DNA of 43,792 nucleotides from Dehalococcoidia bacterium (GTDB lineage Bacteria; Chloroflexota; Dehalococcoidia; UBA2979), in contig JAQWLS010000108.1 of assembly GCA_029247135.1 (NCBI GenBank), positions 1 to 43,792 of the forward strand, read 5' to 3'. Below are positions 14,933 to 36,828 of this stretch, piece by piece (positions within the stretch are counted from its first letter, which is position 1; each line of letters opens with the position of its first letter). The notes beneath the pieces were generated by a model, which did no database searches, was not told where the DNA came from, and was given only the letters and a program-made list of their open reading frames with translations. The translations under genes were made by a program, and so were the position numbers.

Positions 14933-15700
14933 TTATCCCTGCGGAAGCAATTGCGCCCTTACTACTAAACGATCGCTATACTTCCTAGATTCAGCATCAA
15001 AGGTACCGCCACACGTGTACAGGGTAACGCTCTCGATTGGGACATCGGCTGTCCAAGCCTCTCTCCAATTTTCCACGTCTACATCAAAGGCTCGACGCCA
15101 AATTACCTCATATATGTAAACTCTTTCATCCGTATGAATCTCAATTCTGTCGCCCTGCGACAAAAACCGAAGATTCTGAAAAATCCCGGGTCCCCGATAA
15201 TACGCTCCGGCATAAGGAACTGTGGCATTGTAATCAACGTGACCAGCCAAAATGGTGTTCCCTCCAGACCCAGGTGTCCCACCCAACCGATTCCATTGCG
15301 TTAAGTCGTACATAGCAACATCAGCCGGACCATATGGGTTGGGCATATTAGACCCAATAGGGACAAAATGGTTACAGATAGTAGCGCTCACACCCAAACT
15401 CTTTATTTCTAAACGAACATTCTCATCGCAATTCGAATGATAACCATAGAGACTAGTAAATCGCTCTAAGTCTAGGCTTTCTTCCGAGACTGTTTCGGTG
15501 TTGCCTGCCGTCGCGGTAGAAGTTGTTTGAGTTCCGTTGCTTGTCCCGACAGCTACTACAGAATTAGAATTTGGCTGCACAAGACTAGTATCTGTCTCTA
15601 TTGTGCATGCCAAGAAAAAAAGAAAGGAAATAAAGAGAATTAAAACGAGCTCTCCTAGCCGGATAAAATTCTTAGATCCCTCCAATAAACCAAATAACAC
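14933..15700 (-). CDS. sortase, probable lipoprotein/N-terminally anchored
   Basis: AGHVDY (His), ESVTLYTCGG (Cys), DRLVVRAQ (Arg); hydrophobic N-terminus ending FFLAC. Confidence 0.82.
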   Translation of the reverse strand: MLFGLLEGSKNFIRLGELVLILFISFLFFLACTIETDTSLVQPNSNSVVAVGTSNGTQTTSTATAGNTETVSEESLDLERFTSLYGYHSNCDENVRLEIKSLGVSATICNHFVPIGSNMPNPYGPADVAMYDLTQWNRLGGTPGSGGNTILAGHVDYNATVPYAGAYYRGPGIFQNLRFLSQGDRIEIHTDERVYIYEVIWRRAFDVDVENWREAWTADVPIESVTLYTCGGTFDAESRKYSDRLVVRAQLLPQG

Positions 15701-24221: not shown

Positions 24222-25601
24222 ATTACTACTAAGAAGCCCACCAACCAACTAGACGCCGCAAGTGATATTTGGGAACAGGCAACTGTTTTACTACAGAAGG
24301 AAATAGGTAAGCGCCTCTGGTCGACTTGGTTCGCTGATGTTCGCATCTCAGAAATAACATCTAAGTCAATAATTATGGAAGCGCCGCATCTTGCAGTTGA
24401 GAGAATAAAAAAGCAGTGGCTCAATGAACTTAATACAGCTATAACTAATGCCGGCGGCCACGGGCTACAGATTACTTTGCAGGTGACTAAGGCAAGATCG
24501 ACAGAACAAATCGAGACTGGTGAAAATGTCACCTCGCCTCTGCATGATGATTTGGCTGATATCGGACTTAATCCCAGATTTACATTTAGTACATTTGCCG
24601 AAGCCGAATGCAACTCTTTCGCCCTCGGTCGAGCAAGAGAAGCCGCCATCGGAAAAGCCACTGAATACAGTCCCCTACAAATCAGCGGCCCTGCTGGTAT
24701 GGGCAAAACACACCTCCTACACGCAATTGGCGCTGAACTTGTAAAAGCTGGTAAGAAAATAACAATCACAACCGCTGACGAATTTACAGCGGAATTTATC
24801 TCCGCTGTAACAGGTAAGGATGGTCAAAATAAACGAACTAAAATCTCAGACTTTCGAAAAAAATACAGAAAAGTTGATGCTTTATTAATTGATGGTCTGG
24901 ATTTCTTTGATGGCTCCAAGCCTAAATCCGTCTTAGAACTAGCCGAAGTTATCAATGAACTTAATACTCGATCAAAACTCGTCGTCGTAACGTCCAGAAA
25001 AAACCCACTTAGTCTTAAGGTACATGAAGAACTTAAAAATAGAATGCACGGTGGCTTTACTGTCCGATTAGCAGAGCCAAAAACTGAAGACGGTGCGATT
25101 ATCGTGAAGCATCTCGCTTCAGCTATCGGTATTAAGCATATTTCAAAAGAGGCCGCCACTACTCTGGCTCGAAGACGACAACAATCTGTGTCAAGACTCG
25201 TCTCAGGGGTAAACGAGCTCGCTGTTTACTTAGAATTTACTAAATTAAAACCGACCGTTGATGCCGTTAATGCGGCATTGGAGATGAGCGCACCTGCACC
25301 GGAGGGCGTAATTGACTCGTCCATCGTTTCTCAAGTGATTTCAGAGTATTTTGATATACCCTGGGATGAAATAATCTCAGGTCGCCAAACTCATGATCTG
25401 ACCCGAGCCAAGCACATGGCGATGTATCTTCTCCGAACCGTTTGCGAATTACCTGTGAAGGAAACTGCTCGATTCGTGGGACTTAAACACTACTCGAACG
25501 CATCACGCGCAGAAAAAGACATTACTCTGAAAATGAAATCAAGCCCCTCACTGCGCGATTCGGTAGCTACATTGATTGAAAAGATTAATGAAGCTGCTTA
25601 A
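24222..25601 (+). CDS. dnaA: chromosomal replication initiator DnaA, apparent ATT start
   Basis: Domain I (IWEQATVLLQKEIGKRLWSTWFADVRI...) lies upstream of the track ATG (24375) with no in-frame NTG after the stop at 24201; AGGGG SD at 24210-24214. AAA+ motifs GPAGMGKTHLLHAIG, VDALLIDGLDFFDG; domain IV MAMYLLRTVCELPVKETARFVGLKHYSNASRAEKDI. Confidence 0.88.
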   Translation: MTTKKPTNQLDAASDIWEQATVLLQKEIGKRLWSTWFADVRISEITSKSIIMEAPHLAVERIKKQWLNELNTAITNAGGHGLQITLQVTKARSTEQIETGENVTSPLHDDLADIGLNPRFTFSTFAEAECNSFALGRAREAAIGKATEYSPLQISGPAGMGKTHLLHAIGAELVKAGKKITITTADEFTAEFISAVTGKDGQNKRTKISDFRKKYRKVDALLIDGLDFFDGSKPKSVLELAEVINELNTRSKLVVVTSRKNPLSLKVHEELKNRMHGGFTVRLAEPKTEDGAIIVKHLASAIGIKHISKEAATTLARRRQQSVSRLVSGVNELAVYLEFTKLKPTVDAVNAALEMSAPAPEGVIDSSIVSQVISEYFDIPWDEIISGRQTHDLTRAKHMAMYLLRTVCELPVKETARFVGLKHYSNASRAEKDITLKMKSSPSLRDSVATLIEKINEAA

Positions 25602-26218
25602 CTAGAAAAATAAATACCCTCCCGAGCAATAAATCTAGCCACGTGACTGGGTAAGTCCGCCTCGGTAAGTGGGTTCACCCCGCTTTGAAGCCGGGCTCGC
25701 AAGTTCGTCGATGCCGTTGCGCGCGGCTTCATCGGTACAAAATCGAGCTTTTCACGAATGTTTGGTATTAGTTCCAATAAGCTTGCATCTGGGACAGTCC
25801 CTGTACTTGCCCTGTCGGCTATAGCTAGGCGGGCCGTCGCTAGGATTCTCTCAGGCTTAACCCAATTACTCATATCTGCAAGAGAGTCGGCGCCGACAAT
25901 AAACCAGATCGCAGCTTCTGGATGTTCGGCATGTAGTGCTTCTAGCGTTTCAAAAGTATAAGTAGGCCCCGCCCTATCAATCTCCGCCTGCGACACCGTA
26001 GCCCAACTCAATCCCCTTATCGCCTCGTTGACCATCGCATATCTAAGATTTGCCGGAGTTAAATCAGCCCTATCTTTCCTCCACGGATTACCTGCGGGCA
26101 TAAATATCACTGAACCAAGATCAAGCTCCAGCCTCGCAGCCTTTGCAAGTTCCAAATGGGCACGGTGAGGAGGGTCAAAAGTGCCACCAAGTACCCCTAT
26201 GCGACTTTCCATCGACAT
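25598..26218 (-). CDS. nadD: nicotinate-nucleotide adenylyltransferase
   Basis: RIGVLGGTFDPPHRAHLELAKAA, FMPAGNPWRK, FIVGADSLADMSNW, ISTNLR-like C-terminus (TASTNLRARLQ). Confidence 0.95.
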   Translation of the reverse strand: MSMESRIGVLGGTFDPPHRAHLELAKAARLELDLGSVIFMPAGNPWRKDRADLTPANLRYAMVNEAIRGLSWATVSQAEIDRAGPTYTFETLEALHAEHPEAAIWFIVGADSLADMSNWVKPERILATARLAIADRASTGTVPDASLLELIPNIREKLDFVPMKPRATASTNLRARLQSGVNPLTEADLPSHVARFIAREGIYFSS

Positions 26219-27519
26219 TACATATCCCACACAACAAACAAACCCCTTATTTTGACCCTGTCGCCATCCTTGACGCCAGCTCTCCTTAATTCTCTCTCAA
26301 CACCTAATCTTTTCATTCTGTCAAAAAACTCCGCTCGCGCTTCTTCTTGCTGTAGGTCAAGGGTCAAGGCCCACCACTCGGGAGTTTCTCCCACAAGCTC
26401 TGGCTCCTTACCGTCCTCACTTAAAACTGAAAACCTTCGAGTCTCCGTGACTTTTGGCTTTAAGATCGGAACGCTGTCGCTCGGTGCTTTAGTATTTAAG
26501 CGCACTTGCTCCAGCGCCTTATTAGCTAAGCTGTCAAGGCCCTCTCCACTTTGTCCTGATATCTCAAAAAAATTACCAAACTCGTTCTTAATTTCGTCGT
26601 GTAGAAGCTCAACTCGAACACTCGCATCAGGATCGTCTATTTTATTAAGTGCTAACATAACCGGCTTTTCGCCCAAATTGTGGCCGGAACTAGCCAGTTC
26701 ACCCTGAATTATCCGAATATCTTGGATTGGATCTTCTCGACTCATATCGACCAAATGAATTAACACCTTAGTCCGCTCGATATGGCGCAAAAACTCATGC
26801 CCTAACCCGACACCCTTACTGGCACCCTCTATTAGCCCTGGCATATCTGCCGCGACAAACGAATCAAACCCCAAATATACAACACCTAAGTTCGGTTCGA
26901 GAGTTGTGAATTCGTAGGCACCAATCTTTGGCTGTGCTTTCGACCACATTGAAAGTAATGTCGATTTTCCCGCATTTGGTAAACCAACTAAGCCCACATC
27001 TGCTAACAATTTAAGCTCGATTTGTAAATGCTTTTGCTGCCCGACCATCCCTTTCTGAGCAAACATCGGGGTCTGCCGGGTTGATTTAGCAAACCTCTTA
27101 TTACCGCGACCTCCTCGGCCGCCGCGTGCCGCAATAAACACCATGCCATCTTCATCTAAATCTGCCAGCCGTTCACCATTCATCGCTATTTCTTTAACGG
27201 CGACTCCTACTTGGTGACTGTCCCCCATCACACCCCATACTATCGAACCTGTCGGAACATAAAGTACAACATCGTCGCCAGTTGCTCCATGTCTTTGTTT
27301 GGTGTTGCCTTTTACCCCACCTGTCGCCTGAACTGTTCGCGTGTTGGAATACTCTTGTAAAGTGCTTATGTTGTTCACTGCAATAAAAACTACATCGCCG
27401 CCGCGCCCTCCGTCGCCACCATCTGGGCCTCCTCGCGGAATAAATTTTTCCCGCCTAAATGAAACAGCTCCATCACCACCGTCGCCACCTATCACTTCGA
27501 AGTTAACCACATCCAGCAT
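26218..27519 (-). CDS. obgE: Obg family GTPase
   Basis: Gly-rich Obg fold (GGDGGDGAVSFRREKFIPRGGPDGGDGGRGG), GLPNAGKSTLLS, OCT-like C-terminal domain. Confidence 0.96.
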   Translation of the reverse strand: MLDVVNFEVIGGDGGDGAVSFRREKFIPRGGPDGGDGGRGGDVVFIAVNNISTLQEYSNTRTVQATGGVKGNTKQRHGATGDDVVLYVPTGSIVWGVMGDSHQVGVAVKEIAMNGERLADLDEDGMVFIAARGGRGGRGNKRFAKSTRQTPMFAQKGMVGQQKHLQIELKLLADVGLVGLPNAGKSTLLSMWSKAQPKIGAYEFTTLEPNLGVVYLGFDSFVAADMPGLIEGASKGVGLGHEFLRHIERTKVLIHLVDMSREDPIQDIRIIQGELASSGHNLGEKPVMLALNKIDDPDASVRVELLHDEIKNEFGNFFEISGQSGEGLDSLANKALEQVRLNTKAPSDSVPILKPKVTETRRFSVLSEDGKEPELVGETPEWWALTLDLQQEEARAEFFDRMKRLGVERELRRAGVKDGDRVKIRGLFVVWDM

Positions 27520-27800
27520 GAAAATTCCTAATTTTATTTTATTTACTTTGTTTTGGTTTTTTTTAAGTTGAACGCATAGTTAGTGTTAATTTATTTAATA
27601 GTAGTAGTAGGTGAAATGAATGTGTGAAAAGGTTCCCCTAAATAAGCGTTTTGCCTATCTGTTGCAACAATTTGGTTGGTTAAGGTTATGCGAAGTATTT
27701 GTTAATGTTATGTGCAAGAAAATGAAGCTTGCTGACGACGCTCGCCAGGGTTCTAATTTCAGATTTTTCGTATATGGACAGGCGAAAGATATTCACAAAA
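27520..27800. other. candidate origin of replication (oriC)
   Basis: Flip from C-rich to G-rich on + strand at about 27.52-27.55 kb; T-rich/AT-rich tract 27531-27600; TAGTAGTAGTAG 27599-27610; degenerate DnaA-box-like TGTGAAAAG 27623-27631 and ATATTCACA 27789-27797; near dnaA. Confidence 0.6.
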
Positions 27801-27835
27801 GATTAAATTATTTTGGCAGAGATCAAACATTTGAT

Positions 27836-28573
27836 TCACGGCGTTTCAGTTCGCAGTCGATCTGAAACCTCAAAGCCCTCAGGTGGCTTTCCTGCAAGTA
27901 TCGATGCTCGCGGGATGGGGGGGAAAAGAAAGGGCCGAAGTCGAGCATCTTCATAAAAGCCAAACCCAGCATCGTCCGCAATCTCTTGCAGTGTTTCAGT
28001 AGAGCGAAGAATTGGTTGACTTACATAACGTGATAAGACAAAAGAATTCCATCGATCAAGCCTTTTGTTGCCGCTTGGGCCAAATTCCCAAAGTAGAAAC
28101 AATCCGCCTGGTGTCAACAATCGATAGGCTTCAGAAAAAAGTTTAAATAAGTCAGTTTCGTCCAGGTGTTTGGCGACATAACCACATGTTATTAGGTTAA
28201 ATGTAGCAGTTTTTAGAGGTATATCAGTTGCGGTTGCTTGAAGCAGGTGGGGAACGGTGTTTCGGTCTGGCATTCCCATCGGCTTGTTTTCTCGAGCAAT
28301 TTTTAAGGCTATGGAAGAGAAGTCAATTAGTACCGGGGCATTAGGGCTCTCCGTACGAAGGGATAGATGGCGGGCAAGTGCACCGGTTCCGGAACCTATA
28401 TCCAGATGTGTTGTTTTTGCTGTTAGCGACAGTTCTTCAGGCAGTCTTATGAGAGGGGTTGAGGCCGCCCATAGGCCAAAGGTACCGAATAACTGTCGAG
28501 CGAGGAAACCTTTAAGGCCGGTCGAGTCAAACCAGGCATCATACTCGTTTAGGAGGGCGGACTGGTTATCCAT
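27836..28573 (-). CDS. class I SAM-dependent methyltransferase
   Basis: TTHLDIGSGTGALARHLSLR, LITCGYVAKHLDETDLFKLFSEAYRLLTPGGLFLLWEF. Confidence 0.85.
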   Translation of the reverse strand: MDNQSALLNEYDAWFDSTGLKGFLARQLFGTFGLWAASTPLIRLPEELSLTAKTTHLDIGSGTGALARHLSLRTESPNAPVLIDFSSIALKIARENKPMGMPDRNTVPHLLQATATDIPLKTATFNLITCGYVAKHLDETDLFKLFSEAYRLLTPGGLFLLWEFGPSGNKRLDRWNSFVLSRYVSQPILRSTETLQEIADDAGFGFYEDARLRPFLFPPIPRASILAGKPPEGFEVSDRLRTETP

Positions 28574-34549: not shown

Positions 34550-36049
34550 ATGACTATTCAACACACCTTTTTGGAAGCCATTCGCCAAGAATCGAGGAGA
34601 CAACCTATCTCCAAATTATTTATCCACAAGGGTACCTGCGGAATGGCGACAGACATTGTTTCGGTTTGTGAGGAGCTAGGAATAATCGATATGGCAATGA
34701 GCTTAAACGCTGAGATTATCGAAACATCGTGTGATGGTAGGTGCTGGGCAGCACCGTCTGTTACTGTGCAAAAAATCGATGACGCAGGTGCGGCTTATAG
34801 TAGGCGATTCGATCGTATTGACTTGGGCATAGACCTTGAAGAATTTAACAAGGTGCTTGATTTAACTACGGTACATAATGTGTTCGATGATGGTGTAACA
34901 GGACTAGCTTCGCGATTTGGTCAATTGGATGGAAGTCTACTCGCTGCGGTGGAGCTCGGCGCGTACTCTGTGGCGGAGAAAGTTTTTTTACAGGATCAAA
35001 AGACCATTCTCAGTAAAATAGAGACGAGTAAGCTTTCTGGACGAGGGGGGGCACATTTCCCCACAGGATTAAAATGGAAGCTGGCAGCACAGAATGCAGG
35101 ACCGCGATATTTGGTCGTGAATGCTGAAGAAGGTGAACCTGGGGTTTTTAAAGATAGGCATTTGCTGGAAGCAGACCCACATAGGCTGATCGAGGGGATA
35201 TTGATATGCTGTTATGCCGTTGGAGTGGAGAAAGCCTTCGTGTATGTAAATGGCCAGGCTCATAAGGCGATCGAGTCACTTTTAACCGCACTGGATCAAG
35301 CTAAAAATTATGGGATCTTGGGATCGGAATTTCTTCCAGAAGAAATGTCTGTCGATATAGAGGTGCGGGCCGGTGCTGGTGGATATGTTTGTGGTGAAGA
35401 GTCTGTAATTTTGAACTCGATAGAAGGTGAGCGGCCTGTCCCTAGATTTAAACCACCTTTTGCGACCGATCAAGGCTTGTGGGGCATGCCGACGGTGATT
35501 AATAACGTGGAGACTCTGGCTGCGGTTACTACTCTTTGGCAAGATTCTCCTCCTCCCACCAAGCTTGTTTCTCTTTCGGGTAATGTGACTCGCCCAGGCG
35601 TTTACGAAGTTCCTGCTGATGGAACCTTGAGCTGGAATGGGTTTTTGTTGTCGGCTGGAGCCGAATTAGAAACTGTGCCAGCGCTTCTTCTTGGAGGACC
35701 TTCTGGAATATTCCTGCCTCGGGATAAGTTTGAAGAACGGATAGAAATGAAAAATATCGGCGCCGGAGGAATTTTCGTATTGTCACCAGAATCATCGGTA
35801 AGGGAAATTACGAACGCTCTTGCTGGATATAATGAGCGAGAGTCGTGTGGAGAATGCACGCCATGTAGAGAAGGCACTATTCGGCTCACTAAGTTACTTC
35901 AGCAGGAAACAGTGGATCTGGAAAAGGTTGAAGAATTGATCGAGGTCATGGAGGAAGCATCGCTATGCATGCTCGGTGGAATGGCTGGCAGACCGGTGAA
36001 AAGCGCAATTGAAAATTTTCCTGCCACTTGGATATCAGTAGACCGGTGA
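34550..36049 (+). CDS. NuoF-like NAD(P)H-binding flavoprotein subunit with N-terminal thioredoxin-like 2Fe-2S domain
   Basis: SGRGGAHFPTGLKWKLA, EGEPGVFKDRHLLEADPHRLIEG, ESCGECTPCREGT; N-term TCGMATDIVSVC...CDGRCWAAP. Confidence 0.93.
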   Translation: MTIQHTFLEAIRQESRRQPISKLFIHKGTCGMATDIVSVCEELGIIDMAMSLNAEIIETSCDGRCWAAPSVTVQKIDDAGAAYSRRFDRIDLGIDLEEFNKVLDLTTVHNVFDDGVTGLASRFGQLDGSLLAAVELGAYSVAEKVFLQDQKTILSKIETSKLSGRGGAHFPTGLKWKLAAQNAGPRYLVVNAEEGEPGVFKDRHLLEADPHRLIEGILICCYAVGVEKAFVYVNGQAHKAIESLLTALDQAKNYGILGSEFLPEEMSVDIEVRAGAGGYVCGEESVILNSIEGERPVPRFKPPFATDQGLWGMPTVINNVETLAAVTTLWQDSPPPTKLVSLSGNVTRPGVYEVPADGTLSWNGFLLSAGAELETVPALLLGGPSGIFLPRDKFEERIEMKNIGAGGIFVLSPESSVREITNALAGYNERESCGECTPCREGTIRLTKLLQQETVDLEKVEELIEVMEEASLCMLGGMAGRPVKSAIENFPATWISVDR

Positions 36050-36828
36050 GAAGGCTAGCACTGCTCGTACTGCTGGGATGCAGCTTGCTTGTTGGATGCT
36101 CCGAGGAGTCTGCTGAAGTGGTGGTAATTGCGACAGCGCAACCGCAGGATACAGAAACCCCGGCAGCCGTAGAAACGGTTGTGACGTCTGCGACAGTTAC
36201 TGGAACCCCTGTTCCTCAGCGAACGGCGAGCGCCACGGCCACTGCGTCGTCAGTCCCAGTCCCGACTGCTCCTTTGGCGGTTACTGACTTGAACGATTTC
36301 GTTGCTAACTATGGATATCCATCAACGGCTACCTATGCCCAAATTAAAATTGACCGGATTGGCGTGGACGCGTTCGTATCCGCACGCACGGTTAACCAAG
36401 GTCAAGCTATGCCAGACCCGTATGGGCCAGCCGATGTAGTTTGGTACGATTTGAGTGCGTGGGGTGGCAGCTTAGGCGGATCTCCCGGTGTAGGGAATGC
36501 AATTTTTGCTGGACATTATGATTATGCGGCGTGGGTGCCATATGCAGGTGTGCGGTACGGACCTGCATGGTCTGTTTTCGTGAATCTGAGGAACTTAGTA
36601 GTTGGGGACATAGTTGAAATAGACAAGGACTATCTCACTTACAGATATGCAGTATCTCAGGTTTGGAACGTGGGACCAGAAAAAGACACAGAATTTTGGG
36701 AGCGTATGTGGTCGTCTGATGTGTTAGTTGATTCTGTAACGCTTTATACGTGCGGAGGTGTGTTTGATAAGGCTACGGGTGAATATCCCAGAAGAACAGT
36801 AGTACGTGCAGAGAGAGTGATCGATTAG
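36046..36828 (+). CDS. lipoprotein-type sortase
   Basis: GTG start overlapping nuoF stop (GTGA); lipobox LLVGC; AGHYDY (His), DSVTLYTCGG (Cys), RRTVVRAE (Arg). Confidence 0.87.
   Translation: MRRLALLVLLGCSLLVGCSEESAEVVVIATAQPQDTETPAAVETVVTSATVTGTPVPQRTASATATASSVPVPTAPLAVTDLNDFVANYGYPSTATYAQIKIDRIGVDAFVSARTVNQGQAMPDPYGPADVVWYDLSAWGGSLGGSPGVGNAIFAGHYDYAAWVPYAGVRYGPAWSVFVNLRNLVVGDIVEIDKDYLTYRYAVSQVWNVGPEKDTEFWERMWSSDVLVDSVTLYTCGGVFDKATGEYPRRTVVRAERVID

Follow-up and report, generated by a model that had tools for sequence, protein, structure and literature searches.

A putative chromosomal origin with DnaA-trios upstream of obgE, in an inverted block, in a Dehalococcoidia genus with a divergent DnaA

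Where does replication of the chromosome begin in this uncultured Dehalococcoidia bacterium, whose genus is represented here by metagenome assemblies alone? The stretch analysed (the window) is one contig of 43,792 bases from a 1.6-Mb assembly of 115 contigs that is 72% complete (G000). An earlier note had proposed that the intergenic gap between obgE and a class I methyltransferase gene (27520–27835) is the origin of replication, oriC. The cumulative skew minimum, a switch in the sign of third-codon-position skew, synteny with 27 loci of the same family, conserved DnaA-trios and a fixed box-trio geometry all favour that proposal. We hold it to be very probable that the gap is the chromosomal oriC, that it carries a basal unwinding system (BUS) of DnaA-box and DnaA-trios, and that it lies in an inverted block in a genus whose DnaA and box have changed together; this would locate the origin for the genus. 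Statements about the genus are based on three species, G000, G001 (JAPYRK01, also named Dehalococcoidia bacterium, in which a 165,321-base contig spans most of the window and more) and G002; the DnaA proteins of the last two are 87% and 61% identical to that of the window. The family comparison covers the gap upstream of obgE in 27 loci from other genera.

Base composition on the plus strand flips at the gap, and recounting gave exactly the figures reported before (C24/G6 at 26221–26280, C16/G6 at 27481–27540, G9/C3 at 27541–27600, G16/C4 at 27661–27720 and G22/C11 at 27901–27960). The cumulative GC-skew minimum, which had been expected in the gap, lies there both in the window (27546) and in the 165-kb contig of G001, where the skew drops nearly unbroken over approximately 156 kb and reverses at the homologous gap (156646, equivalent to about 27600 in the window). 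These curves cover the window and contigs of relatives, a whole-chromosome curve being precluded by the 115-contig, 72%-complete assembly. In G024, which represents another genus of the family, the skew of a 543-kb contig reverses at its own obgE-upstream gap, samples between position 330 kb or so and the gap running from -0.15 to -0.22 and those to the right of it from +0.06 to +0.19. In a single-contig genome from another family in the class the skew also reverses at dnaA-obgE.

Within the gap the putative elements follow one another in the order expected of a BUS. The AT-rich duplex unwinding element (27521–27598, about 19% GC) is one of only two stretches in the window with 70 bases at 20% GC or less, and it lies on the trio side, distal to the box, which is also where the AT-rich DNA lies in Bacillus subtilis (PMC8287927). 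Next comes the TAG run TAGTAGTAGTAG, located as described at 27599–27610 of the plus strand and reading 3'-GAT-5' from the box side. It is one of only two perfect fourfold trinucleotide runs in the window, it occurs once in the 1.6-Mb assembly of G000, and in all three species it supplies what characterises a BUS, an uninterrupted series of at least three trios whose central base is A (.A.). A 12-bp spacer (27611–27622, counted to a 9-bp box) follows, within the 10–13 bp at which box-trio spacers of BUS elements peak (PMC8287927); it probably also contains a degenerate proximal DnaA box, since family members have a second TCCACA-type box here. The box-like sequence TGTGAAAAG occupies 27623–27631, again as noted, and is read as a putative DnaA box, CTTTTCACA, on the minus strand. 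Two candidate outer boxes may complete the set, one with a TGCACA core on the minus strand at 27711–27716 (each of the three genus members has TGTGCA at the corresponding position of the alignment), the other with a TTCACA core on the plus strand at 27792–27797 (ATTCACAAA, found in G001 too and absent from G002). An open reading frame across the gap (27620–27865) was rejected as a gene, having no Pfam match and lying in a gap conserved only in short blocks, as was a structured RNA, there being no Rfam match and no tRNA.

When the gaps of the three species are compared, the longest string common to all is ATAGTAGTAGTAG, a 13-bp block containing TAGx4 (the maximum in shuffled sequences was 9). 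It is embedded in 23 bases identical between the window and G001, whose gaps are 65% identical overall, and TTATTTAATAGTAGTAGTAGGTG is identical between these two. G002 has TAGx4 once, at the homologous place; G001 has a second copy, which lies within a coding frame. Close relatives keep both the TAG run and the AT tract, and a rival cluster of boxes was sought in the window and not found.

The box itself departs from the consensus, and no site within one mismatch of TTATCCACA occurs inside the gap, as had been stated. The published BUS rule allows up to two mismatches to TTATCCACA at 0–16 bp from the trios. The box of G002 (TCATTCACA) has two; that of G000 differs at three of nine positions and so falls outside the rule unless one admits boxes specific to a lineage. 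In G000, G001 and G002 alike, precisely 18 bp separate the TTCACA core from the trios, and relatives have TCCACA at about that place; this fixed distance and the homology within the family support a lineage-specific box. Of the earlier description, "degenerate DnaA box," the place stands, and "degenerate" gives way to a TTCACA-core box at a fixed distance, matched by an altered box-reading helix in DnaA.

The family at large apparently carries a BUS between dnaA and obgE. In the 27 loci the gap upstream of obgE contains one or more DnaA boxes, a few bases and then a period-3 array (for example GTCCACACTATCCACGGCACTACGATGACTACG), located 84–127 bp from the obgE start with the trios pointing to obgE; the comparison among relatives for which the earlier note had asked thus came out in its favour. 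The joint score for box and array averaged 15.0 against 9.8 (s.d. 1.3) in shuffles, and 28 of 30 loci scored at least 13, the 95th percentile of the shuffles being 12. Given a register set without using the middle base, the middle base of the trio strand is A in 62 triplets, C in 53, G in 12 and T in none; the loci are related, and these 127 triplets (115 with A or C) are therefore not independent tests. The G cases are mostly, by inspection, a CCA triplet beside the box and probably belong to the spacer. Trio mutations in B. subtilis showed that C can replace A and that G and T cannot (PMC10721633), and the middle bases in this family agree with the amino-group rule as predicted from Bacillus; the family would thus display in nature what was derived by mutagenesis. 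In high-GC relatives (L052–L078, upstream of obgE) trios with C in the middle (3'-GCT-5') are mixed with GAT.

In 22 of the 27 loci dnaA is directly upstream and co-oriented; in every one (27/27) obgE is succeeded by nadD, which shares the strand of dnaA, and in 22/27 the gene after that is the methyltransferase gene, convergent with nadD. From these orders the ancestral arrangement would be dnaA - oriC - obgE - nadD, and dnaA-obgE adjacency extends across family and class, in keeping with an intergenic origin near dnaA. The gene dnaN is on other contigs or, in single-contig genomes, distant; it is on a separate contig in G000, in agreement with the earlier claim that dnaA and dnaN are not neighbours. 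In another genus of the family (G032:C85:31793–37161) dnaA is about 3 kb from obgE and points away, with the box-trio element still at obgE, so that here too the neighbourhood of the origin has been reshuffled locally.

The window and G002 instead show the order dnaA> <nadD <obgE oriC <methyltransferase. Both nadD (25598–26230, Pfam CTP_transf_like) and obgE (26218–27519, GTP1_OBG), with oriC directly upstream of the latter as in every family member examined, are on the minus strand, as is the methyltransferase gene (27836–28573, Methyltransf_11), the unmoved right neighbour. Judged by these gene orders, oriC, obgE and nadD are inverted in place between unmoved neighbours in this genus. That they turned together away from dnaA explains why dnaA, rightly placed near the origin by the earlier note, does not abut it, the end of dnaA (25601) and the gap being 1.9 kb apart. 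Since the origin turned along with both genes, the relation of obgE and nadD to the fork is presumably unchanged.

The initiator is the most altered component. The dnaA gene (24222–25601, plus strand) encodes a protein with domains I, III and IV (Pfam DnaA_N, Bac_DnaA and Bac_DnaA_C, all above cut-off), Walker A and the box VII arginine. Its predicted model (mean pLDDT 79) has as its best PDB match 8btg, the B. subtilis BUS complex. Genus DnaA is only about 27% identical to family DnaA, compared to 51–58% for ObgE, and the genus stem branch is 4.1 to 6.3 changes per site, depending on the root, for a DnaA branch that is poorly measured and placed, against 0.46 for ObgE. In all three species the second Walker B aspartate is glycine and the sensor-2 arginine is glutamate, from which we infer that this DnaA hydrolyses ATP poorly. 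All three also have Ala or Ser at the equivalent of Asn187, which in B. subtilis contacts the middle base of the trio (PMC10721633), and a 7-residue insert after the initiator-specific-motif (ISM) helix; the change at Asn187 counts against the BUS reading. No in-frame ATG, GTG or TTG precedes the region coding for domain I, though that domain is conserved (DnaA_N); ATT, ATT and ATC respectively occur 7 nt after an AGGGG Shine-Dalgarno in the three species (window 24222–24224; G001:C1:153315; G002 contig C37), and dnaA of the genus probably starts at this ATT/ATC codon. A search for a donor in 400 phylum genomes, phages or plasmids returned nothing above approximately 30% identity, on which account replacement from an unsampled source and rapid divergence are indistinguishable, and either might explain the odd DnaA.

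The altered residues include those which read the box. Genus DnaA lacks the canonical set R399, R432-D433-H434 and H439 and has (E. coli numbering) K399, K432, H433, Y/H434, S435, S438 and R439, where its own family has mostly R, S, H and H at 432, 435, 438 and 439. It appears that DnaA and box changed together, the core from C to T and the protein at residues 399, 432–434, 438 and 439. TTCAC-core boxes are known from the Epsilonproteobacteria, where they have been linked to Lys432, Ser435, Ser438 and Lys439 of DnaA helix 5 (PMC5043019). The genus shares with them T at box position 5, Lys432, Ser435, Ser438 and a basic residue at 439, although most of its own family has Ser435 as well. The Epsilonproteobacteria keep R399 and a conserved 433–434 dyad, whereas the genus has K399 and H-Y or H-H; since theirs is an unrelated lineage, we read the likeness as partial convergence, residues 399 and 433–434 being unlike those of both the Epsilonproteobacteria and the family. 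In another family of the class, L099 (G090) and L101 (G055) have helix 5 RSAS, most of the class having RDHS or RDHT, and TNNATAAC-like repeats in the dnaA-obgE gap where other families have GTGGATAAC; initiator and box may have changed here a second time, independently.

So altered a protein raises the possibility that the origin is here and is fired by another initiator or independently of DnaA, the latter being a decaying relic as has been discussed for some cyanobacteria. The lost Walker B aspartate, sensor-2 arginine and standard box-reading residues, together with the very long stem branch, would fit such a relic, but DnaA and ObgE are conserved to much the same degree inside the genus (87/61% versus 85/62%), DnaA retains Walker A and the box VII arginine, the trios and their distance from the box have been preserved, and there is a strong skew. 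We regard a relic DnaA as very improbable.

A slightly less probable explanation still is that the gap is only the promoter or 5' region of obgE, with the TAG run a regulatory or chance repeat, and that replication starts at some other place, such as the region upstream of dnaA. The AT-rich tract is immediately upstream of obgE and could contain a promoter, and dnaA-upstream regions serve as origins in many bacteria. However, one family locus after another has boxes and trios upstream of obgE, there is no box cluster upstream of dnaA, and the skew changes sign at the gap and not at dnaA. Third-codon-position GC skew, calculated per gene on the plus strand, is negative for 27/27 genes on the left and positive for 15/17 on the right, on either coding strand, and switches on passing from obgE (-0.217) to the methyltransferase gene (+0.175); dnaA itself (-0.176) has the left-side sign. 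A promoter may function in the gap alongside the origin. That the flip is merely a coding-strand or local composition effect, as minus-strand obgE and nadD on the left and many plus-strand genes on the right might suggest, is hardly credible and is contradicted by the split by gene strand (left, plus -0.10 and minus -0.215; right, plus +0.235 and minus +0.151), since a sign that is the same on both strands, and which holds across the 165 kb of the sister contig, tracks replication rather than coding.

We return to the gap as a DnaA-dependent oriC, for which binding, unwinding and firing are inferred from the observed asymmetry flip, conserved synteny and sequence, and fixed geometry. DnaA would bind the TTCACA-core box at 27623–27631, aided by the weaker proximal site, and an oligomer would grow from it on the plus strand over TAGx4, capturing the bases of each trio; the AT-rich tract at 27521–27598 would then melt on the obgE side, and helicase would be loaded there for two forks. 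With the B. subtilis BUS (DnaA-boxes #6/#7 and trios; PMC6669920, PMC8287927, PMC10721633) this scheme shares the order box - spacer - 3'-GAT-5' trios - AT-rich DNA, the 12-bp spacer, at least three trios and a DnaA of the same fold (8btg). It differs in the TTCACA core and in a DnaA without the Asn187 equivalent and with the 7-residue insert; moreover, the B. subtilis origin is between dnaA and dnaN, whereas that of the genus is beside obgE in a block inverted relative to dnaA. The family origin is likewise directly upstream of obgE, but has TCCACA boxes, often in tandem, a canonical DnaA and trios whose middle base is either A or C.

What is new in the genus is the inverted block, the TTCACA core and a drastically changed DnaA; the unwinding element is common to its relatives. 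The inversion would have displaced the origin from dnaA, and DnaA and box would have co-changed while the trios stayed canonical. One might speculate, tentatively and with the balance against it, that initiator and origin were reset as a pair, either at the time of the inversion or following it: DnaA lost its ATP-hydrolysis motifs and standard box reading, the TTCACA boxes converged with those of the Epsilonproteobacteria, the AUU/AUC start may limit DnaA instead of ATP turnover, and the trio code remained fixed. The genus can serve as a natural experiment on bacterial origin opening, in which some features stay constant (trios, spacing) and others prove open to rewiring (box, DnaA domain IV, ATPase motifs and the orientation relative to dnaA).

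A second dnaA was sought and none was found, additional Bac_DnaA matches belonging to a tandem IstB/DnaC-like ATPase. This 462-aa protein, with two such domains and an N-terminal Cys-rich segment, is present in all four genus members (G000:C103:46726–47706; G001:C1:69862–70833, L160:655–2043) and is possibly a double helicase loader. Flanking the origin are two lipoprotein-like proteins that resemble each other and carry sortase-like motifs (TLYTCGG), one encoded at 14933–15700 on the minus strand and the other at 36028–36828 on the plus strand.
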